Shown: positions 3,048-22,811 of the stretch, piece after piece
Numbering within the stretch: position 1 is the stretch's first letter
Layout of the letters: every line of letters begins with the position of its first letter
NCBI GenBank assembly: GCA_028868825.1
Contig: JAGWTU010000019.1
Coordinates: 1-64,000, forward strand
Direction of reading: 5' to 3'
DNA length: 64,000 nucleotides
Source of the DNA: Burkholderiales bacterium
GTDB taxonomy: Bacteria; Pseudomonadota; Gammaproteobacteria; Burkholderiales; Burkholderiaceae_C
Translations under genes and position numbers: made by a program
Notes under the pieces: generated by a model
The model's input: the letters and a program-made list of their open reading frames with translations, nothing else
What the model was told of the DNA's origin: nothing
Databases searched by the model: none

Positions 3048-4601
3048 ATGATCGAAGACCTCAAACGAACGCTCTGGGCCACCGCCGACAAGCTCCGCGC
3101 CAACATGGATGCCGCCGAGTACAAGCACCTGGTGCTCGGCCTGATCTTCCTCAAGTACATCTCTGACACGTTCCAGGCCAAACGCACCGAGCTGACCGTG
3201 CGCTTCGCTGACCCTACCGACGAGTACTTCTTGGCCGACAGCACGCCCGAACTGTTGGCTGCGGAGCTAGAGGATCGCGACTACTACCGTGAGGTGAACG
3301 TCTTCTGGGTGCCCGAGGCCGCCCGCTGGGAGGCGTTGCGTGCCGCAGCCAAGCAGCCCGACATCGGCAAGCGCATCGACGATGCCTTGTCGTTGATCGA
3401 GGCCGAGAACGCCAAGCTCAAGGGCATCCTGGACAAGCGCTTCGCGCGGGCCCAACTGCCTGACGGCAAGCTCGGCGAACTGGTCGACCTGGTGTCCACC
3501 ATCGGCTTCGGTTCGTCGGCGGCCGAGGCGCGCGACGTGCTGGGCCAGGTCTACGAGTACTTCCTGGGCATGTTCGCCAGTGCCGAAGGCAAGCGAGGCG
3601 GCCAGTTCTACACGCCACGCAGCATCGTCAAGACTCTGGTGGCCGTGCTGGCACCGCACCATGGCAAGGTGTACGACCCGTGCTGCGGCAGCGGCGGCAT
3701 GTTCGTACAGAGCGAAGAGTTCATCCTGTCGCACGGCGGTAAGCTCGGCGACGTGGCCATCTTCGGCCAGGAGGCCAACCCGACCACCTGGCGCTTGGCG
3801 GCGATGAACCTGGCCATTCGCGGGATCGACTTCAATCTCGGTCGCGAGCCGGCCGACACCTTCACGAAGAACCAGTTCCCCGACCTGCGCGCCGACTTCA
3901 TCCTGGCCAACCCGCCATTCAACATCAGCGACTGGTGGCACGCCAGCCTGACCGGCGACCCGCGCTGGGTGTACGGCGACCCGCCGCAAGGCAACGCCAA
4001 CACCGCCTGGCTGCAGCACATGCTGTGGCACCTGAAGCCCGGCGGCCGCGCCGGCATCGTGCTGGCCAACGGCAGCATGAGCAGCAGCCAGAACAACGAA
4101 GGCCAGATCCGCGCGGCGATGGTGGAAGCCGACGTGGTGGAAGTGATGATCGCGCTGCCCGGTCAGCTGTTCTTCAACACGCAGATCCCGGCCTGCCTGT
4201 GGTTCCTGGTCAAGGACAAGCCTCGGCGCAAGGGCGAGGTGCTCTTCATCGACGCGCGCAAGCTAGCCACCATGATCAGCCGCGTGCAGTGCGAGTTGAC
4301 GGACGAGGTGATTGCCCGGCTGGCCGGCACCGTGGCCGCGTGGCGCGGCGATGCGGGTGCCGGTGAGTACGCGGACGTGGCGGGCTACTGCCGCAGCGTG
4401 ACGCTGGCCGAGATTGCCGAGCACGGCAACGTGCTGACGCCGGGCCGCTACGTGGGCGCGGAAGCGGTGGACGACGACGACGAAGGCTTCGAGGCCAAGA
4501 TGCGGGCGCTGACGGAGAAGCTGGGCGAGCAGATGGCGAAGGGGGCGGAACTGGATGCGGTGATCCGCGCCAAGCTCGGGGGGCTGGGGTATGAGTGCTG
4601 A
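3048..4601 (+). CDS. hsdM: Type I restriction-modification system, methyltransferase subunit HsdM
   Basis: Start MIEDLKRTLWATADKLRANMDAAEYKHLVLGLIFLKYISD. Motif I 'DPCCGSGGMF' and motif IV 'NPPFN'. Confidence 0.96.
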   Translation: MIEDLKRTLWATADKLRANMDAAEYKHLVLGLIFLKYISDTFQAKRTELTVRFADPTDEYFLADSTPELLAAELEDRDYYREVNVFWVPEAARWEALRAAAKQPDIGKRIDDALSLIEAENAKLKGILDKRFARAQLPDGKLGELVDLVSTIGFGSSAAEARDVLGQVYEYFLGMFASAEGKRGGQFYTPRSIVKTLVAVLAPHHGKVYDPCCGSGGMFVQSEEFILSHGGKLGDVAIFGQEANPTTWRLAAMNLAIRGIDFNLGREPADTFTKNQFPDLRADFILANPPFNISDWWHASLTGDPRWVYGDPPQGNANTAWLQHMLWHLKPGGRAGIVLANGSMSSSQNNEGQIRAAMVEADVVEVMIALPGQLFFNTQIPACLWFLVKDKPRRKGEVLFIDARKLATMISRVQCELTDEVIARLAGTVAAWRGDAGAGEYADVAGYCRSVTLAEIAEHGNVLTPGRYVGAEAVDDDDEGFEAKMRALTEKLGEQMAKGAELDAVIRAKLGGLGYEC

Positions 4602-5946
4602 TTGGCCGCGGTTCACCGTCGCCGAACTGCAGGCCGCTCGTCACCTACTTGTCGAGGATGGCAATCACGGCGAATACCGGCCGCGATCGGAAGAGTTTGC
4701 GACTGCTGGCGTGTCGTTCATCCGTGCCGCAGATATGGATGACGGCCGAGTGCTTTTCGAGTCGGCCGCGTGCATCAACAACGTCGCGCGAGCGCGCATC
4801 CGAAAGGGCGTTGGTCGCCCGGGCGACGTGCTGCTTTCGCACAAAGGCACCGTTGGCAAGGTCGCGCTCGTGCCTGAGCGATGCCCGGACTACGTCTGCT
4901 CACCGCAGACCACCTTCTGGCGAGTTCTCGATGAATCGATCCTTGATCGTGCGTACCTGTTCGCGTACCTGCAGAGTCAAGAGTTCAAGGATCAGCTGGC
5001 GTCCCGCAAGGGCGAGACCGACATGGCTGACTATGTCAGTCTGACCGCTCAACGCCAACTCACTGTTCCGTTGCCGCCGCTCAAGATCCAGCGCTCGATC
5101 GGTGTGCATTTGTCGATGCTCAGCAACCGCATAGCCCTCCTGCGCGAAACCAACGCCACCCTCGAAGCCATCGCTCTGGCGCTATTTAAGTCATGGTTTG
5201 TCGACTTCGATCCCGTTCGCGCCAAGCAGCAGGGGTTGGTGCCACTAGGGATGGACGAGCCAACGGCGGCTTTGTTTCCAGCTACGTATGAAGAGTGGCA
5301 GGCGCAGGCTTCACGGCCAGCCGTGAGCGACATGATTGCGTCTGGCTGGCTCCTGATCGGCGACGGCTACAGAGCCAAGAACAACGAGTTAGGGCGACCA
5401 GGCGTGCCTTTCGTTCGTGCTGGCGATCTCGATGCAGGTCAAATTACGCCAACGAAGGACTACCTCGCGGAACCGGCAGTTAGGGCGGCGAGCACGAAGA
5501 TGGCCAAGCCTGGCGACACGGCGTTTACGTCAAAGGGCACAATCGGTCGATTCGCTTTTGTCGACACCGCTTCGGGCGAGGCGGTGTACTCGCCACAGGT
5601 CTGCTTTTGGCGCAGCCTGCGGACAGACATTGTCGAGCCTGCTTACCTTCACTACTGGATGAAGAGCGCGGCCTTCAAGGTTCAGGTCGATGCAGTAAGG
5701 GGGCAAGCGGCGATCATGGACTACGTGAGCCTGGCAGATCAGCGACGCATGCGCCTGGATATTCCGCCGATCCGAGTTCAAAAGCGCTTCGCTGAAATTG
5801 CTCAGGTGATTATCGAACAGATCTCGTGCAATCGGTCCCTTGCGACCTACTTGACGTCAGTCCGCGACTCCTTGCTCCCCCGACTGATCTCTGGCCAACT
5901 ACGACTGACAGAAGTCGCAACGCAAACCACCGACGTACTCACATGA
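4591..5946 (+). CDS. hsdS: Type I restriction-modification system, specificity subunit HsdS
   Basis: Two target-recognition-like halves, each ending in a conserved region (LPPLKIQRSIGVHLS..., IPPIRVQKRFAEI...). Overlaps hsdM by 11 nt. Confidence 0.93.
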   Translation: MSADWPRFTVAELQAARHLLVEDGNHGEYRPRSEEFATAGVSFIRAADMDDGRVLFESAACINNVARARIRKGVGRPGDVLLSHKGTVGKVALVPERCPDYVCSPQTTFWRVLDESILDRAYLFAYLQSQEFKDQLASRKGETDMADYVSLTAQRQLTVPLPPLKIQRSIGVHLSMLSNRIALLRETNATLEAIALALFKSWFVDFDPVRAKQQGLVPLGMDEPTAALFPATYEEWQAQASRPAVSDMIASGWLLIGDGYRAKNNELGRPGVPFVRAGDLDAGQITPTKDYLAEPAVRAASTKMAKPGDTAFTSKGTIGRFAFVDTASGEAVYSPQVCFWRSLRTDIVEPAYLHYWMKSAAFKVQVDAVRGQAAIMDYVSLADQRRMRLDIPPIRVQKRFAEIAQVIIEQISCNRSLATYLTSVRDSLLPRLISGQLRLTEVATQTTDVLT

Positions 5947-8489
5947 CGCCTTCTGTAACACAGCGCAATGCTTTGTGGGATACCTTTCTTCAGCGATGGC
6001 CCCTTGAGGTCCTGAGCCAGCTCACGCTGCCTCAATACACGGCAGCCGGTGACAAGGATTGCTTCACGCAATGGCTGGAATCCAAGACGGAAGGCCTGGG
6101 CTCAATTTGGGGCGGCTCGTCGTTCAAGTTCGGCGTGTATTCCCGCAAGGACCAATCCGATCAAGTTGACGGCGAGGGGCGGCGGTTCAGCGCGGAATAC
6201 GCCTGGATGGGCAAGTACGGCGATACGGCGGAAGCGGCGTTTGCCAAGGTTCACGGCATCATCCTCGGAATTGCCAAGGCTGCCAGAGCTGGTGATCTGG
6301 CCGCCGTCGAGGCCGCTGACCTGGGCACCGTGACGAAATGGAAGATCGCGTTCCTGTACCAGGACAGGGCGAAGCCGTCCGTGTTGCCGATCTACAAGCT
6401 GGACAGCTTGCGCAGCGTCGCTGGTGCTGTCGGCAAGCCGACATGTGCCGAGCTTCATGCCAAGCTGATGGCGCAGCGGGGCGAGGTGGACGTGCTGACC
6501 TACGGTGACAAAGTGTGGTCTGAGATTCAGGCCATCGAATCAGCAAAGCTGACCACGGATCAAGCGCACACGTACTTCAAGGGTTCGGATCGATTCAAGC
6601 CCATCAAGCCACCCACCGAAAGGATGGCTGGTTTCCGAAGCCTGAGCGGCGCCGAGATTGCTCTTGCCCTCGACAACAAGACACCCACGCTGTACCTCAG
6701 CCCCGGCGCATGGCTTGACGATGTCAAAAGCGTCCTCGGTGGTGTCGTTCCCTATGCGCCCGACAAACCTCGTTCCAGCAACATCGCGGCCAACGCGCCA
6801 GCGCTGGCTGTTGGCAACCCCATCGTCAAGCTGACGGTGCCGGACATGGCTGCGTTGCACAAACTATGCGACGCCTACGAGGGAGCCGTTTCACCATCGA
6901 TCGGCATTGCCCAGCCGGCGCCCGCAGCGAAGGAGCCCGAGTTGGACACGCCGCCTTTGAATCAGATCCTCTATGGGCCACCCGGCACAGGTAAGACCTT
7001 CGAGACGATCAACGCTGCACTTGCGATCCTTGATCCGATGTACCTGGCTGCGAACAAGGCCGATCGTGCGGCGTTGCGCCGCCGCTTCCTGGAGTTGGAA
7101 CGTGGGAAGCGCGTCCGCTTCACGACCTTTCACCAGAGCTTCAGCTACGAGGATTTCGTCGAAGGCATCCGGGCTAACGTGGACGACGATGCCGGGGCGC
7201 CCACGCAGGGCGTGAGTTACACGATCGAGAACGGCGTGTTCGCCGACCTGTGCCGAGACGCACGTCGCGACAAGCAGCTTGAAGAGCATGTCGGTATTCG
7301 CGAAGACGCCAAGGTTTGGAAGGTGTCCATCGAGGAGGCCAGCAGCTCTGGCGAGACGCGGAAGTACTGTTTGTCGCACGGCGAGGCGCGCATAGGCTGG
7401 CCGAAGGCTGGTGATCTCAACACGGCCGACCTGAACGAAGTCGGTCAGAAGCTCGGCACGAAGGTACAGAGTTCTCTCGACAACTTCAGCCAGCAGATCA
7501 CCATCGGCGACATCGTGGTGTGCTTGGCATCGACGACGACCATCAGTGCGGTGGGTGTTGTCACTGGTGACTACGAGTACACGCCCAAACCTCCAGCCGG
7601 CGTGCGAGAAGACTACGTGAATAGGCTACCGGTGCGATGGCTCGTCACGGGCATCAATTTCAACATCCTGGAAATCAACAAAGGCGTTCGGTTGACGCTG
7701 CAGACGGTCTACCGCCTATCCCGGTTCACATGGCCCGATCTTCTGCAAGCGCTCACATCTGCCGGCGTGAAGTTGAGCGTGCCGACGCAGCCGTCGGCGC
7801 CGACCCACGAGCCATACGTACTCATCATCGACGAGATCAACCGTGGGAACGTTTCGCGCATCTTCGGTGAGCTGATCACATTGATCGAGCCATCCAAGCG
7901 GGCCGGTGCCGACGAGGCACTGGAGGCGATCCTTCCCTATTCGAAGAAGCCCTTCAGCGTGCCAGCCAACGTCTACCTGGTCGGAACGATGAACACCGCT
8001 GATCGTTCTCTTGCCGGCCTTGATGTCGCACTGCGCAGGCGTTTTGTGTTTCGCGAAATGCCGCCGCGGCCCGAACTGCTGGACGGCGTCACGGTGAACG
8101 GAATCGACGTGAGCAAGCTGTTGATCGTGTTGAACCAGCGCATCGAGGCGCTTCTCGACAGGGAGCACTGCCTCGGACACGCCTACTTCATGCCGCTCGA
8201 AAGCGATGCCAGCCTGATGCGACTGGCCTCGATTTTTCGGGAGCAGGTGCTGCCCTTGTTGCAGGAATACTTCTTCGAGGACTGGCAGCGTATCCAATGG
8301 GTGCTCAACGACCACCGCAAGCCCAACCCTGAGCACCGCTTCGTTCGGGCCCAACCCTGGAACGTAAAGGAGCTGTTCGGCGCCGACGTGACGGCATCGG
8401 GCACCAGGCAGGCGTGGTCGGTCAACGAAGACGCGTTCGCGCTGCCCGAAAGCTATCTTGGCCTGATTGACCACGCGCTGCCGCCGTGA
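5943..8489 (+). CDS. mcrB: McrB-like AAA+ ATPase with a KFG-type N-terminal domain and an EVE-like insertion
   Basis: ATGA overlap with hsdS. Walker A 'LYGPPGTGKT', Walker B 'VLIIDEINRGNVSRIFGEL', 'GTMNTADRSLAGLDVALRRRF' (McrB signature region). Confidence 0.92.
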   Translation: MTPSVTQRNALWDTFLQRWPLEVLSQLTLPQYTAAGDKDCFTQWLESKTEGLGSIWGGSSFKFGVYSRKDQSDQVDGEGRRFSAEYAWMGKYGDTAEAAFAKVHGIILGIAKAARAGDLAAVEAADLGTVTKWKIAFLYQDRAKPSVLPIYKLDSLRSVAGAVGKPTCAELHAKLMAQRGEVDVLTYGDKVWSEIQAIESAKLTTDQAHTYFKGSDRFKPIKPPTERMAGFRSLSGAEIALALDNKTPTLYLSPGAWLDDVKSVLGGVVPYAPDKPRSSNIAANAPALAVGNPIVKLTVPDMAALHKLCDAYEGAVSPSIGIAQPAPAAKEPELDTPPLNQILYGPPGTGKTFETINAALAILDPMYLAANKADRAALRRRFLELERGKRVRFTTFHQSFSYEDFVEGIRANVDDDAGAPTQGVSYTIENGVFADLCRDARRDKQLEEHVGIREDAKVWKVSIEEASSSGETRKYCLSHGEARIGWPKAGDLNTADLNEVGQKLGTKVQSSLDNFSQQITIGDIVVCLASTTTISAVGVVTGDYEYTPKPPAGVREDYVNRLPVRWLVTGINFNILEINKGVRLTLQTVYRLSRFTWPDLLQALTSAGVKLSVPTQPSAPTHEPYVLIIDEINRGNVSRIFGELITLIEPSKRAGADEALEAILPYSKKPFSVPANVYLVGTMNTADRSLAGLDVALRRRFVFREMPPRPELLDGVTVNGIDVSKLLIVLNQRIEALLDREHCLGHAYFMPLESDASLMRLASIFREQVLPLLQEYFFEDWQRIQWVLNDHRKPNPEHRFVRAQPWNVKELFGADVTASGTRQAWSVNEDAFALPESYLGLIDHALPP

Positions 8490-9793
8490 ACTCCGTAGTC
8501 AGCGTTCGCGAATACGCGTGGTTGACCACCGCGCCAGTCGAGCCGTCGCTCGACTGCGCCCAGGTGACTACCAGCGCGTTCGACTATCTCTGCAAACTGA
8601 GCGAATCGTTCTCGCGTTCCGGCGCCCGCCTGGTGCAAGTAGAGGGCCGCCAATCGCTGAGCCTCGACAGCTACGTCGGAGTCATTCAGACGCCGTGCGG
8701 CACTACGCTGGAGATCGTGCCGAAGCATCACGAAATCGGCGACAGCCTGCCAATGTGTCGCGCACTTCTGCGGAAGATGATCCAGGCCACGTTGGACCTG
8801 CCGACCCGCGAGGTCGGCATCGCCGCGCTGGAGCACTTCGACGCGCCGCTGTCCGAGTGGGTGATGCGCCGCTACCTTGCCGAACTCGACCAACTGGTCA
8901 AGCGGGGCCTGCGCTTTGACTACCATCGCGTTGGAGAGGAGCTTCCGTTCCTTCGCGGCCAGCTGAACATCATGGCGCAGTTGCGCCAGGCACCCGGCCG
9001 GGAACACCGCTTTCATGTGCGCCACGATGTCTTCCTACCCGACCGGCCAGAGAATCGATTGTTGAAGCTGGCACTCGACCGCGTTCGGTTGAGCACGAAA
9101 GACGCCGACAACTGGCGGTTGGCCCAGGAGCTGAGCTTCATGTTGGCCGAGGTGCCCGCGAGCCAGCAGGTACAGGCAGACCTGCGCGCATGGGGAACGG
9201 ATCGGCTGATGGCGCACTACCGCTCCGCAAAACCATGGTGTGAGCTGATCTTGAACCGCTGGATGCCGCTGGCCGTGCTCGGCGAGCAGCATGGCCTCAG
9301 CTTGCTGTTCCCCATGGAGAAGCTGTTCGAGAAGTACGTGGCCGTGTGGTTGCGCAGCAGAGTCAAGACAGAGACGCAGATTCGAACGCCGGCCGCCAGT
9401 GAATCGCTGTGTAGGCATGCGGACAACGACATGTTCAGGCTGGAGCCCGACGTGCTCATCAGCTCCGGCGCACAGCAGTGGGTGCTGGACATGAAGTGGA
9501 AGCGGATCGACTCGGCCGACGCGCAGAACAAGTACAAGCTCAGCCAAAGCGACTTCTACCAAATGTTCGCCTACGGCCACAAATACATGCAGGGGGCTGG
9601 CACCATGGCGCTGATCTACCCGAAGTCCGCGTTGTTCGCCGAGGCTCTCAAACCGTTCTATTTCAGCCCGGCGTTGCAGTTGCGGGTTTTGCCCTTCGAC
9701 CTCGACAGCGACACCCTGGTTGGATGGCAGGCGAGTGATCTCCCCCTGCGCCGCCCGGCTGCAGTGGAGAATGGGGTAGCCGTGCATTTCTGA
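8486..9793 (+). CDS. mcrC: McrC-like PD-(D/E)XK nuclease subunit
   Basis: GTGA overlap with mcrB. McrC-like 'RLEPDVLISSGAQQWVLDMKWKR' and 'SQSDFYQMFAYGHKYM'. Confidence 0.92.
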   Translation: MNSVVSVREYAWLTTAPVEPSLDCAQVTTSAFDYLCKLSESFSRSGARLVQVEGRQSLSLDSYVGVIQTPCGTTLEIVPKHHEIGDSLPMCRALLRKMIQATLDLPTREVGIAALEHFDAPLSEWVMRRYLAELDQLVKRGLRFDYHRVGEELPFLRGQLNIMAQLRQAPGREHRFHVRHDVFLPDRPENRLLKLALDRVRLSTKDADNWRLAQELSFMLAEVPASQQVQADLRAWGTDRLMAHYRSAKPWCELILNRWMPLAVLGEQHGLSLLFPMEKLFEKYVAVWLRSRVKTETQIRTPAASESLCRHADNDMFRLEPDVLISSGAQQWVLDMKWKRIDSADAQNKYKLSQSDFYQMFAYGHKYMQGAGTMALIYPKSALFAEALKPFYFSPALQLRVLPFDLDSDTLVGWQASDLPLRRPAAVENGVAVHF

Positions 9794-9832
9794 GAGGCCC
9801 GCAAAAGGGTTCAGACGGGAGGGTTTGTACCG

Positions 9833-12800
9833 GTGACTGAGGACCAGCTGGAACATGAAGCCCTTGGCTGGCTGGCCGATGTGGGCTGGCAGCACCGCTA
9901 CGGACCCGACTTGGCGCCCGACGGCGCCGCGCCTGAGCGCGACAACTACCGGCAGGTGCTGCTGATTGGGCGCCTGCGACAGGCCGTTGCGGCGCTGAAT
10001 CCGGCCGTGCCGCTGGCGGCGCGCAATGATGCCCTCAGGCAGGTGGTGGACTTGGGCACACCGGTGCTGCTGGCTGCCAACCGACAGTTCCATCAAATGC
10101 TGGTGAGCGGCGTGCCGGTGCAGTATCAGCGCGACGGCGAAACGCGGGGCGACTTCGTTCGCCTCGTCGACTGGGCCGATCCGACGCGCAACGAGTGGCT
10201 GGCCGTCAACCAGTTTTCCGTCGCCGGGGCGCACCACACGCGCCGGCCAGACATCATCCTGTTCGTCAACGGCCTGCCTCTGGTGCTGATCGAGCTGAAG
10301 AACCCAGCCGACCAGAATGCCGATGTGTGGAAGGCCTTCCATCAGATCCAGACCTACAAGGAGCAGATCGCCGACGCCTTCCAGTACAACGAAGTACTCG
10401 TGATTTCGGACGGCACCGATGCGCTGCTGGGGTCGCTCTCAGCCGACAGTGAGCGTTTCATGGCCTGGCGCACCATCGACGGCGTCGCGGTCGACCCGCT
10501 CGGGCCCTTCAACGAACTGCAGACGCTGGTGCGCGGCGTGTTGGCGCCGACCTACCTGCTGGACTACCTGCGCTTCTTCGTGCTGTTCGAGGATGACGGC
10601 GGCCTGGTCAAGAAGATCGCCGGCTACCACCAGTTCCATGCCGTGCGCGCTGCCATCTCCCAGGTAATAGCTGCGTCCCGCTCTGATGGTCTGCCCAGCG
10701 TGCGCGGCAAGGGCGGCGTGGTCTGGCACACGCAGGGCAGCGGCAAGAGCATCACCATGACCTGCTTCGCGGCGCGGGTGATGCGAGAGCCGCTGATGGA
10801 AAACCCGACCATTGTCGTCATCACCGACCGAAACGACCTTGACGGGCAGCTTTTTGGCGTCTTCTCCTTGGCGCAAGACCTGCTGCGCGAGAAACCGGTG
10901 CAGGCCAGCACGCGGCAAGAGCTGCGGGGATTGCTCGGCCAGCGCCCTTCCGGTGGCATCGTGTTCGCGACGATCCAAAAGTTCATGCCGGGCGAAGATG
11001 AGGATGCCTTCCCGCTCTTGTCGGATCGCCGCAACATTGTGGTGATCGCCGATGAGGCGCACCGTACGCAGTATGGTTTCGAGGCCAAGCTGAAGACGGT
11101 CAAGCAGCGGCCCGCTGGTTCCGCGTTCACGACAGTACTGACAACCGGTGCCGGCCAGCCTGCAGCGCACAAGGCCGAGTTTGCGCCGACGGTCGACCGC
11201 TACCAAGTTGGTTACGCCCAGCACCTGCGCAACGCGCTGCCCCATGCCACGTTCGTGGCCTTCACGGGCACCCCTGTGTCGGGCGAGGACCGCGATACTC
11301 GTGCCGTGTTTGGCGACTACATCAGCGTCTACGACATGCAGCAGGCCAAGGAGGATGGCGCGACAGTGGCCGTCTACTATGAGAGCCGGTTGGCCAAGCT
11401 GGGGTTGAAGGCAGACGAACTGGCCACCATCGACGACGAAGTCGACGAACTAGCCGAAGACGAGGAAGAGAGCCAGCGGGCCAAGCTCAAGAGTCGCTGG
11501 GCCGCACTGGAAAAGGTGGTCGGTGCCGAGCCACGCATTGCGAGCGTCGCAGCGGACCTGGTGGCGCACTTCGAGGAGCGCGGCAAGGCTCAGACCGGCA
11601 AGGCTATGGTGGTGGGCATGAGCCGCGAAATCTGTGTCCACCTCTACAACGAGATCATCAAGCTGCGGTCGACCTGGCACAGCGCTGACCCGGAGCAGGG
11701 TGCCATCAAGATCGTCATGACGGGCTCGGCGAGCGACAAGGCGCTCCTGCGCCCGCACATTTACAGCGCCCAGGTTAAGAAGCGCCTGGAGAAGCGATTC
11801 AAGAAGCCTGATGACCCGCTGCGCATGGTGATTGTGCGCGACATGTGGTTGACAGGGTTCGACGCGCCGTGCGTGCACACGCTGTACATCGACAAGCCGA
11901 TGAAGGGCCACAACCTCATGCAGGCCATCGCCCGTGTGAACCGGGTGTTCAAGGACAAGCAGGGCGGCTTGGTGGTGGACTACATCGGCATTGCCAACGA
12001 GCTGAAGTCGGCGCTGAAAGAGTACACCGCCAGCAAGGGTCGAGGCCGACCCACGGTGGACGCTCACGAAGCCTATAGCGTGTTGGCAGAGAAGCTCGAC
12101 GCGCTGCGCGGCATGCTGGCCGGCACGAACGGGCACGGCTTCGACTACAGCGGCTTCTTGACAGGTGGCCACAAGACGCTGGCAGGCGCCGCCAACTTCG
12201 TGTTGGGCATCAAGGACGGCAAGAAGCGCTTCGCCGACCTCGCACTGGCGATGAGCAAGGCCTTTACCCTTTGCTGCACGCTCGACGAAGCCAAGGTGGT
12301 GCGTGAGGAGGTGGCCTTCTTCCAGGCAGTGAAGGTCATCCTGACCAAGCGCGAGATCAGCGCGCAGAAGAAAACGGACGAACAACGTGAACTGGCCATC
12401 CGGCAGATCATCAGCTCGGCTGTCGTGTCGGAAGAGGTGGTCGACATCTTCGACGCCGTCGGACTGGACAAGCCCAACATTGGCATCCTCGACGACGCCT
12501 TCCTCGCCGAGGTGCGCAACCTGCCCGAGCGGAACTTGGCGGTCGAACTGCTGGAGCGGCTGCTCGAAGGCGAGATCAAGTCTCGCTTCGCCGGCAACGT
12601 GGTCCAAAACAAGAAGTTCTCGGACATGCTGACCGATGTCGTGCAGCGCTACCAGAACCGATCCATCGAAGCTGCGCAGGTGATGGAAGAGCTGGTGCAG
12701 ATGGCCAAGAAGTTCCGGGAAGCCGCCGCACGTGGAGAGCAGCTTGGTCTCAACGAAGACGAGGTGCGCTTCTACGACGCGCTTGCGAACAACGAGTCGG

Positions 12801-13030
12801 CCGTACGAGAGCTAACGGATGAAACTCTGAAGAAGATCGCACACGAACTGGCCGAGAACCTGCGTAAGAACCTGACAGTCGATTGGTCAGCCCGAGAAAG
12901 CGTGCAGGCCAAGCTTCGTCTCATGGTTAAGCGCATCCTTCGAAAATACAAGTACCCCCCGGATCAACAAGAGGCTGCTGTCGACCTTGTATTGCGCCAA
13001 GCTCAGTCCATGGCAGAGGCTTTGTCATGA
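9833..13030 (+). CDS. hsdR: Type I restriction enzyme, endonuclease/translocase subunit HsdR
   Basis: GTG start. '[20 protein letters not shown]' nuclease core, '[12 protein letters not shown]' Walker A, 'DEAHRTQYG' motif II, 'FTGTPV' motif III. Confidence 0.95.
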
Positions 13031-13058: not shown

Positions 13059-16000
13059 ATGAGCACTAGCCCTTCGGTCGGCGAACGCGCGGCGGTTTCT
13101 GGGTACACCCTCCAGTACCTCATCGCGGCCGACCTCATCTATGCGGAGATCTCTGCCGGAACGCTCGAATGGGTTGGTCTTGTTGATCCGGATGCGGGCC
13201 GTGTGGATGACGTGCTGATCGCTACTTCCGGCTGGATCGATGCCTACCAAGTAAAGTGGGCACAGCCGAAGTCAACCTACACATTTGCAGCGTTTACCAA
13301 TCCGACGGAAAAGAAACCGTCCTTATGGGTTCAACTGGCGGACGGGTGGAAGGCGCTTAGCAAGGGACATCCTGAAAGGCAGGCTAGGGTTAATTTCGTC
13401 ACGAACGAGATTGCCTCACCGAACGACAAATGTCCCGACACCGGTGGGTCGAAGCTTCCCTTTCAAGAGCTATGGAGTGAAGCACTACTTCCCTTAAGCA
13501 GCGGCTCGTCCGTGATCGGCTCTGTGCCGCCAAAGTACTCGGCTGGATTGGCGCGACTAGCGGATCTGAGCGGTCTCAGCACCACGGAGTTCCATGAATT
13601 TCTCTCGAAGTGCAGGCTGCAGTTCGACAGGCCAGACCCTCGCCAAATCCTGAGGGCCGACAAGAGACGCTCGGGAGAACTGGACGACATCGAGCGACTT
13701 GCCGCCTATCTTCAGTCACGAGTCGCCAGCTCAAGAGGCGGTGTCAGGATCGACCGCGAAGACATCCTCAGGGATCTTGGCTGGCAGTCTCGCCTAGCCC
13801 AGCGCTTCAAGCACTACTTTCACGTCGACGAGTCGCTCTACAAAGACATTCAGCCAACCGTCAGCGAACTTCGACAAGTAGTCCATGAACGCCGGTTCGG
13901 ATACGTCGCTCTGCTCGGAGGACCTGGGTCCGGGAAGTCAACCACTCTGACTCAGACCTTTCGTTACGCGAGTAGTGTTCGGCTAATTAGCTACTACGCA
14001 TTCATTCGCAATGATCTATCCACTGGGCGAGGTGAGGCATCCAGCTTCTGGCAGGACATTTATCTCGCTGTACGACAGAGAGGCATCTACTCCCCAGGAT
14101 CGATGCCTCGGTCCTCTAGCGAGTATCGACTGGGCGTAAGCGAGCAACTCGCATTGCTCGAAGAAGATTGGAGGAATCGACAAGTAGTGACGATATTGCT
14201 GATCGACGGACTCGATCACATCGATCGCGAGCAGCGGCCGACGGAATCCTTGATCAGTCAGTTGCCGCTACCCGAGCAGATTCCCTCCGGTGTCCTCGTC
14301 GTACTTGGCAGCCAGACCCTGAATCTGCAAGGGTTAGCACCTTCAATAGTCGCTCATTTGAGCGAACCAGGTCGGACTCTTCAGATGGGTAGACTGACTC
14401 GAGCAGACGTCTTCAGCATCGGCGATGCCGCCGCCACCGCACCGGCGCTATCGCATCAACAGAAGGAACTGCTGTATGGCCTGACGAATGGCTACCCGCT
14501 CGCGACGATGTATCTTCTCAGTCGCCTAAAGGGTCTTGCTCCAGCCGATATCGATTCACTGCTCGCTTCCGACAGCGGATTCTCAGGAAACATCGATACC
14601 ACCTACGCGTCGTACTGGAATGCCATCAACGATTCAGCAGTTCCTGTGCTCCTTGGACTGCTGTGTCGAATGCGCGTTGGGTTCGACATAAGGGAAGCAG
14701 TTACCTGGGTACCTCACCTGGACGCTGCCGCCTTCGTCCGGCAAACTAGGCATTTCTTTCAGACCAACGATGGGAATCGCTGGTCGTTCTTCCACAACAG
14801 CTTTCGGCAGTACCTGATCCGCCGCACATCGGAAGATCTACTTGGCAACTATTGCGAGTTGAAGGATCGGGCGCAACATTTGCGACTCGCTGAATTGGCA
14901 CAACGCAGCGAGCGTCGAAGCGCCTTTGAGAGAGAAGTCATCTACCATCTTTACGAGGCTGGCGAATTTAGACGTGTGCTGGACCAGGCCACGCAGAGTA
15001 TTTTCAGAGAGCAGTTCTTTGATCTACGCAGCTTCCGCCAGATCGCCGACGATATCGGCTTGGTGGTTAGGTCTGCCAAGAACGAGCTAAGCGGCATCGG
15101 CCTCCTTCGCGCATGGCTCATCGACAAGGAGCTGCACGAGCGGGAGTACTGCCTTGAGATCAGTTCCTTTCGTTCTTCGATCGACGCCTTCCTCGATACC
15201 GAGTCGCTACTCAGCTCCATCATCGACCATAGCGGACTACTGGTCCCTCGTGCGCAGGCGATGACATGCGCGCGCAGACTGCTGGATGCGGGGCTTGCAC
15301 AAGCTTCACGCAGAGTCTTCGATCTTGCTGAGCCACTTGATCTTCTTTCCGGCATTGAAAAGTCAAAGCCTCGGGATGGTGATCAAGATTTCCTGGAGGA
15401 TTGGGTCGACCTTGCTCACAGCATGCGCAGCCCGAATGCCATAGCAGATGCCATTGCCAACCTCAAGGTCGAGGCGTTTGACCAAGACGAGGAGGTACGT
15501 GCAACAGAACGGCTAAAGCGTGCGCTCTATGTTCGCCTCGCAAAGCAGGTCTATGTGCTGGACCAAGCAGAGTTCGCGCGGTTGATGGAGCACCCAGCCA
15601 TTCGATCGTTCGCAAGCGAAGTTCGCACAGAAGTCGATTGGTACCTACTTGGGGAGATCGCTCACCCACATCTCCGCTCATCTGCAATTTCGCGGATCCT
15701 CCAGTCGCCGGACCTCGACCAGTTAAATGAATCGGATCGACTCTATCTTGCGGAACAGATGCGTCGATGTGACTTTGAGAGGGAACGTGTCTTAGAACTC
15801 GTCAAGGACGTTAACCAGCCTGCGCTAGCAGACCCATCGAAGAATCTGTCATTGGAGGGTGATAGGCGATTTCATTTGTTCGCGGACCGCCTGCGATTCA
15901 ATCGCCTTCGCTCAGCGCTTGGACTTGCAGTCACTCCAGAGGCGGCAATTCCGTGGCCCGACGAACTTGGTTTGCGAAACGGTGCTCGCTTTGAGCGGAT

Positions 16001-19000
16001 GGTTGTCGTCGTAGCCAATCTTTGGGGCGCTGCGCTGAGCGGACGACTGTACGACTTTGACGTCATACGTCTCACTCTTCGAGATGCACTTCGTGTTTAC
16101 TACACCACGAGGGAGAACTCAGACCCGTCTTCGGGCTGGTACTTCTACCGTGCGGCTGCAAAGGAGTACTTTGAGTGTCTCGTTCTGGCAGTCGCTGCAC
16201 ATGGCCCTGCACAACTTGAGTCTCTTGGCCGAGAATTTGATGCGGTGTGGGATGCTCATGAGAGTCGGTCAACTTGGACTGCTGATATCCGTCGCAGCAT
16301 CGCCGTTGCATTGTTTCGGAGCGGAGACAGCGAGGACCGCTTGGTGGCGCGACTTGAGGGGATCGCTGAGTCCGAGACATTGCCAGACGACCTTCAAGAG
16401 AGGCTCGAAAGCCTCATTGAGACCGCTCGTAAGTGGCAACTGGCTGGAGAACCGGCACGGGCGAAGGCTCTGTTGGCGCCAACCATCAAGGCGTCATTCG
16501 GCATTCATCATCACAAGGATCGTCAGTTCCAGACCTGGGTTTCCTGGCTGGACAAGGCGTCAGCCGAGGGTGCAACAGACATCATCGCCGAATGCAATCA
16601 GTTCGCCTCCGCGCTGCGCGCCATTGTTGATCTTGGCAGGGGAAGAGGCTCGCAGGAGGCCGCCTCACATCTTCTTTCGATTGCGACCAGAGCAAGCCCT
16701 GCGTTTGCACTGCAGCTCCGCGAGTCCTTGTTCCAAACGGGCACTGTCTCGTACGGTGCTGCATGCCAGGGATTCATCGAAGGTGTGCTCGGCCGCCACG
16801 ATTGCGACCCATTGCCAGTCGTTGACTTCCTTGCGAATGTCGGCGTTGGTGCGGAGCTTCCTTCCGTCGAAGGTATCCTGCCGAAGCTTGTTCAGGCACT
16901 TGTGCGTCAGTCCGGCTCCGCCACCGTGCGCTCCACCCTCGAACCTCTAGTCGCGAGCGTTCTCGTGGATGAGTTCGAGTGTCAGAGAGGCACCTGGCTG
17001 CGCTTATTGCATCGCGAGGTGCAGAAGTTGGAAATCGCTTGGCCTGAGTTGGCGTCACTTGCTCAAGGGCGTCCCGAGATCGAGAGGGGCACCCCGATGA
17101 AGGTCAAGTTGCGTGATGGCAGCGAGATCCTTGAACGCGATTTCCGAAGGCAGATCGTTGATCTCGCGTCTCTCAAGACTGCCATCCAGCTATCCGAGCC
17201 GCAGTCGTTTTACGGGTGGGACAGAGCCACAGAAGTAGTCGTTCGATCCGCTACGCTGGAGCAACTTGAAACTCTGATGCCACTAATCGACCTGCTTGGA
17301 TCACGAGCTCATCTAGTCGCGGCGCAGATAGTCGATCGACTCGCTGAACTCGGTTCAGGAACGTTGGCACAAGGACTTGCCGACAGGTATCTTCAGTCGT
17401 CTACTCCTAGTGGTTGGATCGAGTACTTTGATGGTGGTACGCGTCTGCACATTGCGCGCGCACTGGTCCGCATAAGCCCGGGACGGCGACCAGACTTGTT
17501 CCGTCTTCTGGCAGACGACTATGTCAGCGGTCTGCGGAATCCTCGCGATCTAGTGATGGTCCTTGAGGATCTGCTTCCAATTGTGTTTGATGAAGTGCCG
17601 TGGATCGAAGTCTGGCACGAGCTTCGTGAGCACATAACCCAACTGTCTGAGTTCACTGAGCACGAGCCTGCGCCGCCGTCGACTCTGACCGAATTCGGTT
17701 CCACTCAGGCGCTCGTTGACTCGGCGGTCCTGGACTACCAACTTCCAGTCCCCGAGATGGAGACTCGGTTCATCCGGCTGATTACACTTTGGCTTGAGGA
17801 TTCACGAATGCGGGAACCGACTTTGGAATCGATTGGTCGGTCGATCGATGAGTACTTGCTTGACTCTCACGCGATTGTGCCCATCTACTTGGCGAGAAGA
17901 TCGCTTGATGTCGCTTCGCCAAAGCTTGCAGCCCTTTTGCAGCGACTCGATGCTTCACCGGACATCTCTGTTCGTGCCTACACCCGAGCGATCCTCCGTC
18001 GCAATGTTTCCTCTGACGATTTGCTGCGCTCAACGATGGGCGAAGCACCCGTGGTGTTTGGAATGGATCTTCAGAGCAGCGCTTCTGAGACCCCTATCGT
18101 TGGATTGACGCCTGAGTTTGTGCAACAGAACACCTCCAAGCCCCGCACTCCGGCTGAATTCTTCAGGGTGTGGTTGCCAGAACTGAAGTGGGTTTCCAGC
18201 GTGACTGATGTTCCAGTGGACAACTTGCTTGAGCGCGCGCACCAGATCGCTGAGGTGCTGTTGGGCCGATCGAGATGGGGGACCGATGCCGAGGAACGAC
18301 TTAGAAGCCATCTTGCCGGTATTGAGTGGAAGATTACCTTTCGCCGCCCATGGGCCGCAGTTGGTGAATCAGCGTTGTTTTGTCTTCTGTCGGAGTTGGT
18401 GGACTTTGGTTTGCTTCAGCCCGAACTCGTTCGAGCAACCGATTTTTGGATGTTCTTCGACGAGAGACTTTTGCGCTCTACCCCATCTGCCCGGCCTAAG
18501 GCATGGATTTCCGATCTTCCGGACAGGTCGCATGGCACACCGATTAAAGAGTGGGTGTCGGCGGCGGCACCCCATGTTTCACAGTCTTCGTTCTGCAAGG
18601 CCTTGAATGACGGGTTCGTTGTTGCGGCGGAGCACTCCAGGTTCGTTCGGCATGAATGGGAGATGCCAGAGGAACTTCGCACGGTGGTACTTCGAGCCCC
18701 TGGCTCCTCAGTTTTAGGAGCCATCGATCAGCTCAGTGATGTGCTGCCCGGATACTGCCGTAACCGGGCTGACCTCTATCCCCGAACCTCGGAGGCATTC
18801 GATGTGCAAGCGCCTGTTATCGGAGACAACCAATTCACATTGCGGGTCGGACCAAAACGCTGGCTTGCGATAAACCCTGCGTTCGCTGCGGCGCGGGGCT
18901 GGACCTTCTTAGGCCGGGATGATTTCGCGTGGTTGAATGAGAGCGGCGAAGTCGTTGCTCGGACAATTTACTGGCGCGACGGGCCCGGTCGGCGGTCCCC

Positions 19001-19190
19001 GCCGAAGCTTGACGAAGTGTTTGCTGAAGGCTGGATAGTGATCATCCGTCGGGACGCAATCGGGCTTGTTGGAAAGTCAGTGTCGCTTCAACTTGACGAG
19101 TACGTATCCAGAAGCGCAAGCGTTCGCGAGGAGACCGGACAAGAAAGGGCATCGGCTAGTGCACATTGGTCTGAGGTGGTCACCTTGTAG
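13059..19190 (+). CDS. Giant nuclease-STAND NTPase (Avs-like): N-terminal Cap4/DUF4297-like nuclease, NACHT/STAND NTPase, long C-terminal sensor-like region
   Basis: Intact 2043-aa ORF. N-terminus 'GYTLQYLIAADLIYAEI...VDDVLIATSGWIDAYQVKW' (D-x(n)-QxK). Walker A 'LLGGPGSGKSTTL' (from ~aa 287), Walker B 'VVTILLIDGLDHIDRE'. About 1500 aa of Leu-rich, largely helical-looking C-terminal sequence. Confidence 0.82.
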   Translation: MSTSPSVGERAAVSGYTLQYLIAADLIYAEISAGTLEWVGLVDPDAGRVDDVLIATSGWIDAYQVKWAQPKSTYTFAAFTNPTEKKPSLWVQLADGWKALSKGHPERQARVNFVTNEIASPNDKCPDTGGSKLPFQELWSEALLPLSSGSSVIGSVPPKYSAGLARLADLSGLSTTEFHEFLSKCRLQFDRPDPRQILRADKRRSGELDDIERLAAYLQSRVASSRGGVRIDREDILRDLGWQSRLAQRFKHYFHVDESLYKDIQPTVSELRQVVHERRFGYVALLGGPGSGKSTTLTQTFRYASSVRLISYYAFIRNDLSTGRGEASSFWQDIYLAVRQRGIYSPGSMPRSSSEYRLGVSEQLALLEEDWRNRQVVTILLIDGLDHIDREQRPTESLISQLPLPEQIPSGVLVVLGSQTLNLQGLAPSIVAHLSEPGRTLQMGRLTRADVFSIGDAAATAPALSHQQKELLYGLTNGYPLATMYLLSRLKGLAPADIDSLLASDSGFSGNIDTTYASYWNAINDSAVPVLLGLLCRMRVGFDIREAVTWVPHLDAAAFVRQTRHFFQTNDGNRWSFFHNSFRQYLIRRTSEDLLGNYCELKDRAQHLRLAELAQRSERRSAFEREVIYHLYEAGEFRRVLDQATQSIFREQFFDLRSFRQIADDIGLVVRSAKNELSGIGLLRAWLIDKELHEREYCLEISSFRSSIDAFLDTESLLSSIIDHSGLLVPRAQAMTCARRLLDAGLAQASRRVFDLAEPLDLLSGIEKSKPRDGDQDFLEDWVDLAHSMRSPNAIADAIANLKVEAFDQDEEVRATERLKRALYVRLAKQVYVLDQAEFARLMEHPAIRSFASEVRTEVDWYLLGEIAHPHLRSSAISRILQSPDLDQLNESDRLYLAEQMRRCDFERERVLELVKDVNQPALADPSKNLSLEGDRRFHLFADRLRFNRLRSALGLAVTPEAAIPWPDELGLRNGARFERMVVVVANLWGAALSGRLYDFDVIRLTLRDALRVYYTTRENSDPSSGWYFYRAAAKEYFECLVLAVAAHGPAQLESLGREFDAVWDAHESRSTWTADIRRSIAVALFRSGDSEDRLVARLEGIAESETLPDDLQERLESLIETARKWQLAGEPARAKALLAPTIKASFGIHHHKDRQFQTWVSWLDKASAEGATDIIAECNQFASALRAIVDLGRGRGSQEAASHLLSIATRASPAFALQLRESLFQTGTVSYGAACQGFIEGVLGRHDCDPLPVVDFLANVGVGAELPSVEGILPKLVQALVRQSGSATVRSTLEPLVASVLVDEFECQRGTWLRLLHREVQKLEIAWPELASLAQGRPEIERGTPMKVKLRDGSEILERDFRRQIVDLASLKTAIQLSEPQSFYGWDRATEVVVRSATLEQLETLMPLIDLLGSRAHLVAAQIVDRLAELGSGTLAQGLADRYLQSSTPSGWIEYFDGGTRLHIARALVRISPGRRPDLFRLLADDYVSGLRNPRDLVMVLEDLLPIVFDEVPWIEVWHELREHITQLSEFTEHEPAPPSTLTEFGSTQALVDSAVLDYQLPVPEMETRFIRLITLWLEDSRMREPTLESIGRSIDEYLLDSHAIVPIYLARRSLDVASPKLAALLQRLDASPDISVRAYTRAILRRNVSSDDLLRSTMGEAPVVFGMDLQSSASETPIVGLTPEFVQQNTSKPRTPAEFFRVWLPELKWVSSVTDVPVDNLLERAHQIAEVLLGRSRWGTDAEERLRSHLAGIEWKITFRRPWAAVGESALFCLLSELVDFGLLQPELVRATDFWMFFDERLLRSTPSARPKAWISDLPDRSHGTPIKEWVSAAAPHVSQSSFCKALNDGFVVAAEHSRFVRHEWEMPEELRTVVLRAPGSSVLGAIDQLSDVLPGYCRNRADLYPRTSEAFDVQAPVIGDNQFTLRVGPKRWLAINPAFAAARGWTFLGRDDFAWLNESGEVVARTIYWRDGPGRRSPPKLDEVFAEGWIVIIRRDAIGLVGKSVSLQLDEYVSRSASVREETGQERASASAHWSEVVTL

Positions 19191-19297
19191 CCGGCGGTTG
19201 TCGGGTGCATCCTTGCTCATGAAATCTGAAAAGTGCCATAGTATCCGGCACCCGACTCAGCCATGTTTTTTAGCAGTCGTTGTTTGATTTGGTAGAA

Positions 19298-19774
19298 ATG
19301 AGTGCAATCGACACCAACGCCATAGGGGAGCGGGGAGAGGCCATCTTCTTCACCCGCATGACGGCCTTGCATGGTCAATATCCGTTGTTCCGACCGGCCT
19401 TCCTTGGGGACAAATGGGCAGTGGCTGACTTTGCAGTTGAGTTGGTTGGTCGACCTGGTAAGTACTTCTTGGTTCAGGTCAAGTCCACGACTCGCGGCCT
19501 GAACGCAAGAAGTCGGCTGCGCGTTGGAGTCTCTACTGAGAGATACCAGCAACTCGTCAATGCTTGGATTCCGTCGTACGTCGTGGGCATCAATGACGCT
19601 ACGGAGGAAGCCTATATCTGGGCGGCTGGACCCCGTGCCGCTGGCCCAACCTCGCTCAAGACTCAGTACCCATTGCGGGATGCCGCAGTTCGACAACAAC
19701 TTCATGATGAAGTTCTAAGTTTCTGGCGCACGGTGAGCGCCCGCGTCAGGCCCTGGGTATCTCGCCTCTACTAG
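19298..19774 (+). CDS. DUF4365-like small putative nuclease
   Basis: 'GERGEAIFFTRMTAL...DKWAVADFAVELVGRPGKYFLVQVKSTT': D-x(n)-QxK core typical of DUF4365 proteins. Confidence 0.68.
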   Translation: MSAIDTNAIGERGEAIFFTRMTALHGQYPLFRPAFLGDKWAVADFAVELVGRPGKYFLVQVKSTTRGLNARSRLRVGVSTERYQQLVNAWIPSYVVGINDATEEAYIWAAGPRAAGPTSLKTQYPLRDAAVRQQLHDEVLSFWRTVSARVRPWVSRLY

Positions 19775-19783
19775 GAAATCAAC

Positions 19784-20236
19784 ATGGGCAGCAATCAACC
19801 TTGGTTTGTTGGTCAACGGGCGGAAAGCCTCGCGCTAATCTTCCTTACGCGCAGGCCCACACTGCACGTACAGAAGATGACAGCTGACTTGGGGATCGAT
19901 TACCTACTCGCTATCGGCGAGGCTCCGTCTCGGTACTTCGGACTTCAAGTTAAGGGGGCGGCTAAGATGTCGAACCTAGTGGGTAAATCTGGCCACCTGA
20001 TTAAGACTGTTGCCGAGCCACTTCAGCGATACGCTCGGGATTCTGCGTTTCCAATCGCGATTCTGGCTATCGACATTACTTCTGAGGCCATGCTCTTTGG
20101 ATGGATCAAGGCCCCAGCAAAGAGTCGCTTGGTCAGCAGCACCAGCCAGACTATTTCGATGCGACCGGCAACGGACAAAGAACTTGATCTCGCTGTTCAG
20201 CAAGTGAACGACTGGTACGACTCTGGCCCGAGATAA
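19784..20236 (+). CDS. DUF4365-like small putative nuclease (second copy, divergent)
   Basis: Starts 9 nt after the previous stop. 'GQRAESLALIFLTRR...ADLGIDYLLAIGEAPSRYFGLQVKGAA': same D-x(n)-QxK pattern. Confidence 0.65.
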   Translation: MGSNQPWFVGQRAESLALIFLTRRPTLHVQKMTADLGIDYLLAIGEAPSRYFGLQVKGAAKMSNLVGKSGHLIKTVAEPLQRYARDSAFPIAILAIDITSEAMLFGWIKAPAKSRLVSSTSQTISMRPATDKELDLAVQQVNDWYDSGPR

Positions 20237-20330
20237 ACCCGTGCCAAACGTGGGATTCCTGTACGTCTTTCTGCAGCCAGTCAGATTCACCTGCGCAGCA
20301 GGCCTAGCTTGAACCGAAGGAGTCATACGC

Positions 20331-22811
20331 ATGGACTTGCTCATTGTTACGGCGCTGACCGAGGAGCAGCAGGTAGTGGACGCTGTTTTAAGGGAAAGCG
20401 CCACCTTCCGGGGATTAGGTGATCACTATGTGAGCATTTTCGACTTTGATCGAGGGGACGGCAGGATCTACCGAATTGGCTCAGCGAGTGCTCACCAAAT
20501 GGGCGCGACCAAGATGGGTGCGTATTGCGCTCCCATATTCAAGGACTTGTCGCCCGAAGCCGCAGTGCTAGTTGGAATTGCGGCCTCTGCTGACCCTTCG
20601 ATAGCGAGCTTGGGCGACGTACCCTTCTCTAGTCACGTACTCAGCTTTGACGATATTGCGGTAGAGGCTGGCGTCCTCACTTTTCGAACCGAGGGCTACC
20701 CTACGCACCCTGAGATGCGCAAGGCTGTTGGCTCGCTGCGAACTTCGGTACACACATATGTGCCTTGGCGAAATGCATGCAAAGACACGATACCAAAGGT
20801 CGTCAAGTCGCTGAATGAATTGAGGCAGACGAAGATCACCCCTCCGGTTGACTACAGCCATCCGCACATCATCGTGGACGTGACAGCCGGGGGACCCTTT
20901 CTTATCCGAGATGCTGAGTTTAGGGACACGCTGAGCAAGAAGATGCCAGCGGCAACGAAGATTGCGATTTCAGCACCGGTCCATCCCAAACTGGTCTCGA
21001 TTGAAATGGAGTCACATGGCTTCATGAATGCTGCGCACGAGCAGGGGATTCAAGCCAGTGTACTCAAGGGTATAAGTGATGACGGCGACGCGAACAAGAG
21101 GCAGCTTGAGAAGCAGACTGGGGGGTTCTATCGCGCATATGCATGCTCAAACGCTGTGCTAGCAGTGCTGCATATGCTTCGCAGGGCACCCGTCGTTGAT
21201 TCCGATATGGTGCGAGAGCAGCGTACACAGGATGTCCGCGAAGTCATTCGTCAGCCCCAATCGCCCTCTCCCGCTCGTGTCATTTTGGATGGGGCCAAGC
21301 AGCAGATCTTGGCCTGTCCAGGAGTTATGGCAGTGGCAGTAAAGGAGGCGATTGTCGTGTTCGTTGAGGAGGGACATGATCCGCAACTGCCTGAATTGCC
21401 AGATGGCATCGCTATGGTCATTCGATACGTCCCACCAATCTCGCTTGCAGTTGGACCCTCAGCAATCGGAGGCATGCTAAGGGTAGCCGTAGGTACCGAT
21501 AAAGTCAGAAGCGGCCTAGGAGTTCGGGTCTCCGGTCGTGATGGACACTGCGAGGTGCTTACGACAAATCATGTGGTCAGTCGGTCCCTGCAGCAGCCTA
21601 CACCAATCCATGTGGCGCTTGGAGATCGACGGGTGCGAGCCGCGGTGTTGGAAACAGACCGCCTGCGTGACTTGGCCTTGCTGACAGTGGACCAGGCCCT
21701 GTGGGAGGCGGCACGCATTCGCTCGATCTCTCCTGGATTGCCTGAGCTTGGCGAGGAAGTGGTCATCCATCTTCCCGATGCGCTTGTCAGCGGGCGAATA
21801 AGCTCCGTTGACGGGGTCGCCAGTTTGCGCACGGATGCCTCTGCTGATGCCTCAATGTCTGTCGATGAGGTCTTCACGATTCAGACGGAGGGAAGTATTG
21901 AGTCCGGTCACTCTGGGGCATTGGTGACTACGGTGCTGGGGATTCCGATTGGCTTAGTTGTAGGCCAAGCTGCGTTGCACGACAGCGAGCAGCTTGTGCT
22001 CGGTGTTGCGATTTCTACCTTCCTGAGCACGAGGGAGTTGCGAGTGGACCTGCCACCGCTACGCGACAAGACACAAGTAGTTGTTGGCGTCCTGGTGGCT
22101 AGTGATCGAGATCTGAAGAGTCTGCTGCGACTGCTTCATGAGCCGGAAGTCCAACACGATTCGAGTGGTCGGACATATTGGGCGTCGCACGTGCCAAGCA
22201 CGAGCGAAACGACCGTGATCGTCACGCAGACTGGTGCAATGGGCAATGTAGCTGCGGCTCTTGGAGCCATGGCTCTCATTCTGCATGCTCGGCCTGATTG
22301 GATTCTCAGCGTGGGACTCGCAGGAGGCACTCGAACAGACGTTGGGCTTGGCGATGTTGTTGTCTCGGATAGCTTCGCTTCCCTTGAAGCGGGCAAGGGG
22401 ACCTTGGATGGCAAGGTGATTCGACGCTCAGTGACCCAACAAGGCTTAGCAATCGCGCGTTCGGTCGCTGGGCAAGCCTCGGCTCGTAGTCTCAGGCCAG
22501 ATGGCTCGGAAGACCGGTATGCAGTGCATGTCGGCCCTGTGGGATCTATTGACTCTTTGAATGAGAATTCGCGCCGCTTCTTTGCGGAACAGAGGAGAAC
22601 TCTTGCAGTTGAGATGGAGTCCGCAGGCGTTTTGGCAGCGGCCGAGCAGGAGCGTATCCCGTACTTGTCCGTCCGCGGAGTGGCGGACTTTGCCGATGAG
22701 GCGAAGCATGACGACTGGAGACCGTACGCCTCGGCAGCAGCGGCAAGTACGGCGATCGAAATCATTCGGCAAATCGCAGATGCGCCGCACGCCTCCCGAC
22801 GAACTCGCTGA
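20331..22811 (+). CDS. Three-domain protein: PNP/nucleosidase-like, trypsin-like serine protease, PNP/nucleosidase-like
   Basis: N-PNP: 'IVTALTEEQQVV', 'LVGIAASADPSIASLGDVPFSSHV', 'SIEMESHGF' (EMES from aa 225), 'LKGISDDGDANK'. Trypsin: 'TTNHVV' (H414), 'LRDLALL' (D447), 'ESGHSGAL' (S528). C-PNP: 'SVGLAGGTRTDVGLGDVVVSD', 'AVEMESAGV' (EMES from aa 761), 'VRGVADFADEAK'. Confidence 0.82.
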   Translation: MDLLIVTALTEEQQVVDAVLRESATFRGLGDHYVSIFDFDRGDGRIYRIGSASAHQMGATKMGAYCAPIFKDLSPEAAVLVGIAASADPSIASLGDVPFSSHVLSFDDIAVEAGVLTFRTEGYPTHPEMRKAVGSLRTSVHTYVPWRNACKDTIPKVVKSLNELRQTKITPPVDYSHPHIIVDVTAGGPFLIRDAEFRDTLSKKMPAATKIAISAPVHPKLVSIEMESHGFMNAAHEQGIQASVLKGISDDGDANKRQLEKQTGGFYRAYACSNAVLAVLHMLRRAPVVDSDMVREQRTQDVREVIRQPQSPSPARVILDGAKQQILACPGVMAVAVKEAIVVFVEEGHDPQLPELPDGIAMVIRYVPPISLAVGPSAIGGMLRVAVGTDKVRSGLGVRVSGRDGHCEVLTTNHVVSRSLQQPTPIHVALGDRRVRAAVLETDRLRDLALLTVDQALWEAARIRSISPGLPELGEEVVIHLPDALVSGRISSVDGVASLRTDASADASMSVDEVFTIQTEGSIESGHSGALVTTVLGIPIGLVVGQAALHDSEQLVLGVAISTFLSTRELRVDLPPLRDKTQVVVGVLVASDRDLKSLLRLLHEPEVQHDSSGRTYWASHVPSTSETTVIVTQTGAMGNVAAALGAMALILHARPDWILSVGLAGGTRTDVGLGDVVVSDSFASLEAGKGTLDGKVIRRSVTQQGLAIARSVAGQASARSLRPDGSEDRYAVHVGPVGSIDSLNENSRRFFAEQRRTLAVEMESAGVLAAAEQERIPYLSVRGVADFADEAKHDDWRPYASAAAASTAIEIIRQIADAPHASRRTR

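Follow-up and report, generated by a model that had tools for sequence, protein, structure and literature searches.

Avs1 (AVAST type 1) consists of the MBL nuclease Avs1a, the trypsin-STAND protein Avs1b, and Avs1c. Avs2 and Avs3 carry a Cap4-like nuclease at the N-terminus, followed by a STAND NTPase and a long C-terminal sensor. Nuclease/trypsin-protease pairs are known for Hachiman, AVAST, Lamassu, and DRT (Tuck et al. 2025, PMC12799240). Genes for MBL pro-nucleases lie directly 5′ of trypsin-fusion defence genes in these pairs, and the protease cuts gating loops and thereby activates the nuclease; a related fused protease was activated by forced dimerisation (PMC12799240). A DUF4365 protein degrades DNA nonspecifically once its short-Argonaute partner has been triggered, and the QxK motif of TmuRE (Q62/K64) is its predicted active site (PMC10810196). 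PNP domains employed in defence degrade (d)ATP (PMC10952713, PMC11249213). In the available portions of PMC7159879 and PMC8195603, PNPase and trypsin are given as effector or signalling domains, with no PNP-trypsin fusion there, and a literature search for a named PNP-trypsin defence system found none.

The locus described here contains four genes, P1–P4, which had been proposed in an earlier note to form one defence system. Their role in defence holds up as likely. Nevertheless, the relatives of P1 lead us to a different grouping: the stretch probably comprises two neighbouring defence modules in a mobile island, with P1 acting autonomously and P2, P3, and P4 standing apart from it.

Genomic Context

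The window is the whole stretch of DNA analysed, 64,000 nucleotides in length. Its GC content is 55–63% from position 1 to ~23–24.5 kb against ~70% beyond, and the core sequence match in 31 congeneric genomes begins only at ~24.6 kb. A tyrosine recombinase of 689 aa, the island integrase, is encoded at the contig edge (29..2098, + strand; Phage_integrase, 2.5e-5; PHROG 216 integrase, 3.8e-6). These observations bear out the placement of the genes in a mobile island. The island also carries a type I restriction-modification (R-M) system with McrBC genes. The genes hsdM, hsdS, mcrB, and mcrC occupy 3009..9793 on the + strand (Pfam N6_Mtase, Methylase_S, AAA_5, and McrBC), and hsdR (9833..13030, + strand; TIGR00348, 2.9e-174) lies directly 5′ of P1, outside both modules.

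All four open reading frames, P1–P4, are intact, have a single stop, and lie on the + strand with gaps of 107, 9, and 94 nt. The earlier description of four intact, co-directional genes downstream of hsdR was thus confirmed by the ORF check. As the distance from the hsdR stop to the P1 start is only 28 nt, adjacency does not single out P1–P4, and the operon boundary drawn at P1 is arbitrary. The GC3 values of P1–P4 (0.58–0.62) are similar to each other and to that of the integrase (0.61), and they differ from those of the hsdM-S-mcrBC-hsdR genes (0.68–0.90). This suggests that P1–P4 may have arrived together or from similar sources, which is a weak sign of shared origin and not of shared function. 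No further copy of P1, P2, P3, or P4 was found in the genome (G000).

P1 and Its Relationship to Avs Proteins

P1 (13059..19190, + strand) is an Avs-like protein of 2043 aa. It contains a Cap4-like PD-(D/E)xK nuclease domain (residues ~1–265) with D50, D51, Q64, and K66, a STAND NTPase (residues ~270–760) with the Walker A motif GGPGSGKST at 287–295 and the Walker B motif DGLDH at 383–387, and a C-terminal putative sensor (residues ~780–2043). Pfam revealed just a weak AAA domain (AAA_22). PADLOC matched the Avs1b NTPase region at residues 271–756 (3.6e-19), the SAVED3 PDDEXK model at the N-terminus (4.3e-7), and LmuA (0.0015). Searches of the PDB with P1 by sequence or profile returned generic P-loop and chance ZapA matches only, with no nuclease or STAND match, and the profile search by sequence with the N-terminal nuclease found no nuclease at E ≤ 1.

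The relatives of P1 were obtained by tblastn of 72,556 plasmids, which provided full-length ones, and by an order-level genome search, which added two more. They are proteins of 1944–2065 aa with 23–32% identity over their length, and ten full-length ones (2015–2065 aa) could be aligned from one end to the other. The nuclease residues D50, D51, Q64, and K66, the Walker A motif GxxGSGKST, and the Walker B motif DGLDH are invariant in the ten aligned homologs, and conservation is densest in residues 1–780. Two overlapping ORFs encode the relative in the Vibrio cholerae plasmid pW6G (L030:7995-14142), through either a frameshift or a two-subunit organisation, whereas a single ORF encodes it in pW7G (L024).

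The PADLOC Avs1b model matched all ten members of the P1 family (best 2e-38). Comparison of the family by hhalign with a profile of four Avs1b proteins aligned the NTPase with a probability of 100% (E = 1.6e-39). The C-terminal region gave a weak collinear match (76%, E = 2.3e-5; reversed control, E = 0.7), and residues 1–265 gave no alignment (0.1%). The NTPase matches and the nuclease domain does not; P1 is therefore taken as a relative of Avs1b in which a fused nuclease replaces the protease. The lengths of the two proteins are 2043 and ~1916 aa. The differences from Avs1 are that P1 has a PD-(D/E)xK nuclease at the place of the Avs1b trypsin and that neither Avs1a nor Avs1c is encoded beside it; the upstream gene is hsdR, and P2 and P3 match no PADLOC model. 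Membership in Avs1 was rejected on these grounds and on the score of 66 bits against the NCBIfam Avs1b model, far under its equivalog cut-off of 1500. P1 shares its overall layout with Avs2 and Avs3, but PADLOC lists no Avs match for it other than Avs1b at E ≤ 0.1.

The neighbourhood conservation check proposed in the earlier note was carried out for P1. Each of the 11 distinct loci inspected holds its P1 relative as a solo gene: seven on plasmids (Nitrosococcus, V. cholerae, Sinorhizobium, Agrobacterium, Rhizobium, Rhodococcus, and E. coli), two in genomes of the same order, and two on distinct viral contigs, with L111 and L112 counted as one locus. No relative of P2, P3, or any domain of P4 was found by phmmer and tblastn in the fetched flanks of the 11 loci. 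These flanks mostly span 6–9 kb, and less where some contigs end, and strongly diverged DUF4365 genes could escape. For P1, this is the outcome that the earlier note had named as refuting a single system. The solo occurrence of the relatives argues for P1 working alone, and the single four-gene operon was rejected on this basis. The reading that suits P1 best is that of an Avs-like defence gene acting by itself, with a Cap4-like nuclease where Avs1b has its protease, and its relatives form a clear Avs-like family without a name. If P1 is as it appears, the family is a widespread solo one in which the sensor/NTPase platform of Avs1b has swapped its protease/MBL-nuclease output for one fused nuclease, and effector swapping on a single sensor becomes directly testable. 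This means, moreover, that adjacency in a defence island should not be taken as one system before relatives are checked.

The DUF4365-Like Proteins P2 and P3

P2 (19298..19774, + strand; 158 aa) and P3 (19784..20236, + strand; 150 aa) are putative PD-(D/E)xK nucleases. The candidate active-site residues are D44 and Q60-x-K62 in P2 and D39 and Q55-x-K57 in P3. They are diverged relatives of each other, with 29% identity in BLASTP (E = 3e-5). The sole Pfam family to match them was DUF4365 (PF14280), at 1.3e-4 (22.5 bits) for P2 and 5.2e-3 (17.3 bits) for P3. As both scores are below the gathering score of 24.3, the proteins are named DUF4365-like and not DUF4365 members, and the assignment is a weak one that combines these profile matches with the QxK motif. 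An AlphaFold model of P2 (with P3) had a pLDDT of ~34 and was uninformative. No close relatives of P2 or P3 were found in the 72,556 plasmids or in viral contigs, and marginal matches only were found in 300 genomes of the order.

The PNP-Trypsin-PNP Protein P4

P4 (20331..22811, + strand) is a protein of 826 aa in which two PNP_UDP_1 stretches (Pfam, 3.6e-31) flank a Trypsin_2 domain. The N-terminal PNP-superfamily domain (20331..21215, + strand, residues ~1–295) contains E12, E225/E227, and D250 and is matched over residues 2–257 by the PADLOC PN-superfamily effector model (3.1e-33). The central trypsin-like protease (21216..22055, + strand, residues ~296–575) is matched by Trypsin_2 at 396–537 (2.2e-8), and its catalytic triad, H414, D447, and S528, looks intact. 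The C-terminal PNP/MTAN-like domain (22056..22811, + strand, residues ~576–826) contains E761/E763 and D786 and is matched by PNP_UDP_1 (3.6e-31). Against MTA/SAH nucleosidases of the PDB, the C-terminal domain gave 8e-13, with D594 aligned at their E12. The AlphaFold model of P4, with a pLDDT of ~34, was likewise uninformative. Taken together, the Pfam and PADLOC matches and the motifs uphold the earlier readings of P1 as nuclease-STAND, of P2 and P3 as DUF4365-like (below the curated cut-off), and of P4 as PNP-trypsin-PNP.

The full architecture of P4 was not found in ~1,990 look-ups of genomes made with several queries on overlapping samples, in 72,556 plasmids, in 50,697 phages, in a pattern scan of 84,980 species genomes, or in IMG/VR. 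Genomes of the order, family, and phylum contained just separate PNP-type or trypsin-type matches and no trypsin-PNP fusion, nor was such a fusion found in plasmids or phages. Scans of viral contigs found no relatives of P2, P3, P4, or the N-terminal PNP domain.

The closest relative of P4 in the collections searched is a planctomycete PNP-nSTAND5 protein (L013:9932-12787), with 56% identity in the N-terminal PNP domain. It differs from P4 in that its PNP is fused to a STAND NTPase, not to trypsin-PNP, and no DUF4365 gene neighbours it. The N-terminal PNP domain is regarded as a mobile module because it recurs in this fusion. The planctomycete protein is apparently a PNP-STAND defence protein without a name. 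In proteobacteria, PNP conflict proteins were seen as PNP-TPR with a double-PIN-associated HTH (2052 aa, L084:5748-11906), HNH-PNP-EAD7 (L086:5817-7241), and PNP-bDLD3 (L082:5642-7633). The partners in these other PNP conflict proteins are EAD7, bDLD3, TPR, or HNH, not trypsin.

P4 resembles defence PNP effectors (Cap17; those of Detocs, CBASS, and others) in having PNP-superfamily domains with conserved catalytic acids, but it has two such domains around a protease and no TPALS SLOG domain (Pfam). Assignment as a Detocs or CBASS effector was rejected, the partner genes being absent: P4 has DUF4365-like genes on its upstream side and, on its downstream side, an HTH gene and an ORF without a match, and not the two-component partners of Detocs. 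Descent of the P4 trypsin from a transplanted Avs1b protease was also considered. The profile comparison was weak (hhalign 22%, E = 1e-3), so the kinship is taken at the superfamily level only. PNP domains of defence proteins break down (d)ATP, so the most probable task of those in P4 is to deplete nucleotides.

P2, P3, and P4 as a Possible Unit

The three genes may form a unit. SD-like sequences precede both P3 (AGGAAA ahead of the ATG) and P4 (AAGGAG). As in the pairs of Tuck et al. 2025, a trypsin-like protein with the triad H414, D447, and S528 is encoded, here 94 nt downstream of the nuclease-like P3, and the existence of the published pairs makes a functional link between P2–P3 and P4 plausible (PMC12799240). 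The differences are that P2 and P3 are DUF4365-like and paired, not MBL-fold, and that the trypsin of P4 lies between two PNP domains and not N-terminally on HamA, Avs, or LmuA. The collections in which the P4 architecture was sought (the ~1,990 genome look-ups, the 72,556 plasmids, the 50,697 phages, the 84,980 species genomes by pattern scan, and IMG/VR) also gave no second copy of the trio. New here is the architecture of P4 together with the P2-P3-P4 combination.

By analogy with these pairs, P2–P4 could be a cassette in which protease-gated nucleases and nucleotide depletion are coupled, but this is less likely than not. The full proposition, that the trio is a new three-gene defence system whose inter-PNP trypsin activates a PD-(D/E)xK pro-nuclease pair as the PNP domains deplete nucleotides, is somewhat more doubtful. 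The sub-cut-off DUF4365 scores, the uninformative models (pLDDT 34), the replacement of E12 by Asp in the C-terminal PNP, the lack of a second trio, and the nuclease fold and protease partner that differ from those of the published pairs count against a coupled module. If P2–P4 do form a unit, protease-gated nucleases would extend from MBL-fold to PD-(D/E)xK enzymes and would be tied to nucleotide depletion.

Proposed Mechanism and Alternative Explanations

With P1 as a module of its own, its C-terminal region would bind a conserved phage protein, and the relation to Avs1b makes the large terminase the first candidate. The NTPase would then oligomerise and the Cap4-like PD-(D/E)xK nuclease would cut DNA indiscriminately, which would halt the phage but sacrifice the cell. 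In the second module, the P4 trypsin might be switched on by a signal of infection or by a nucleotide that binds to the PNP domains, and it would process the co-encoded DUF4365-like putative pro-nucleases P2 and P3. One or both PNP domains would split off the base of (d)ATP or of a similar nucleotide, and DNA cleavage and nucleotide depletion would act jointly.

It is also possible, with less probability than the two-module arrangement, that the locus holds three independent neighbours: P1, a DUF4365 pair P2–P3 of nuclease or restriction-like function, and P4, which would serve by itself in abortive infection as a protease/nucleosidase. Unrelated systems pile up in defence islands, and type I R-M plus McrBC are present in this one. 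The N-terminal PNP of P4 occurs elsewhere without DUF4365 or trypsin, as in the planctomycete protein, and DUF4365 genes were seen in four genomes of the order without recognisable PNP or trypsin neighbours. The 9-nt gap between P2 and P3 and the 94 nt to a strong SD before P4, on the other hand, suggest co-expression, and there is a published functional logic for nuclease genes directly 5′ of trypsin fusions (PMC12799240).

An unlikely variant of the second module would make P4 a sensor and not an effector: its PNP domains would bind a nucleotide that the phage has altered and so control the trypsin, P2 and P3 would supply the sole killing activity, and the C-terminal PNP would perhaps be catalytically weakened. 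Consistent with this, D594 of the C-terminal domain aligns with E12 of MTA/SAH nucleosidase, and a related fused protease is activated by forced dimerisation (PMC12799240). The replacement of Glu by Asp is conservative, however, all three motif acids are kept in the N-terminal PNP, and the defence PNP domains of known activity are effectors (PMC10952713).

Least probable of all is the single four-gene system of the earlier note, in which P1 would sense the phage and drive P2, P3, and P4 as effectors of a joint response: the co-directional genes, their short gaps without a consensus promoter or terminator (including the 107 nt between P1 and P2), and the similar GC3, which fits co-arrival of all four, speak for it, and the GC3 and the 107-nt gap also count against the two-module split. 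P1, however, has its own fused nuclease, its relatives stand solo in the 11 loci, and hsdR, only 28 nt away, is an adjacent gene too.

Other Genes of the Island

At the right side of the island, a small XRE/HTH_3 regulator of 82 aa (window 23204-23450, − strand) is convergent with P4; it is possibly an island regulator or a leftover of another module. An ORF of 231 aa (window 23649-24344) lies near the right edge, has no Pfam match, and is outside the genus-conserved sequence. In the type I R-M locus (window 3009-13030), mcrB and mcrC sit between hsdS and hsdR, and in the program-made list of ORFs hsdS runs ~120 nt into mcrB.
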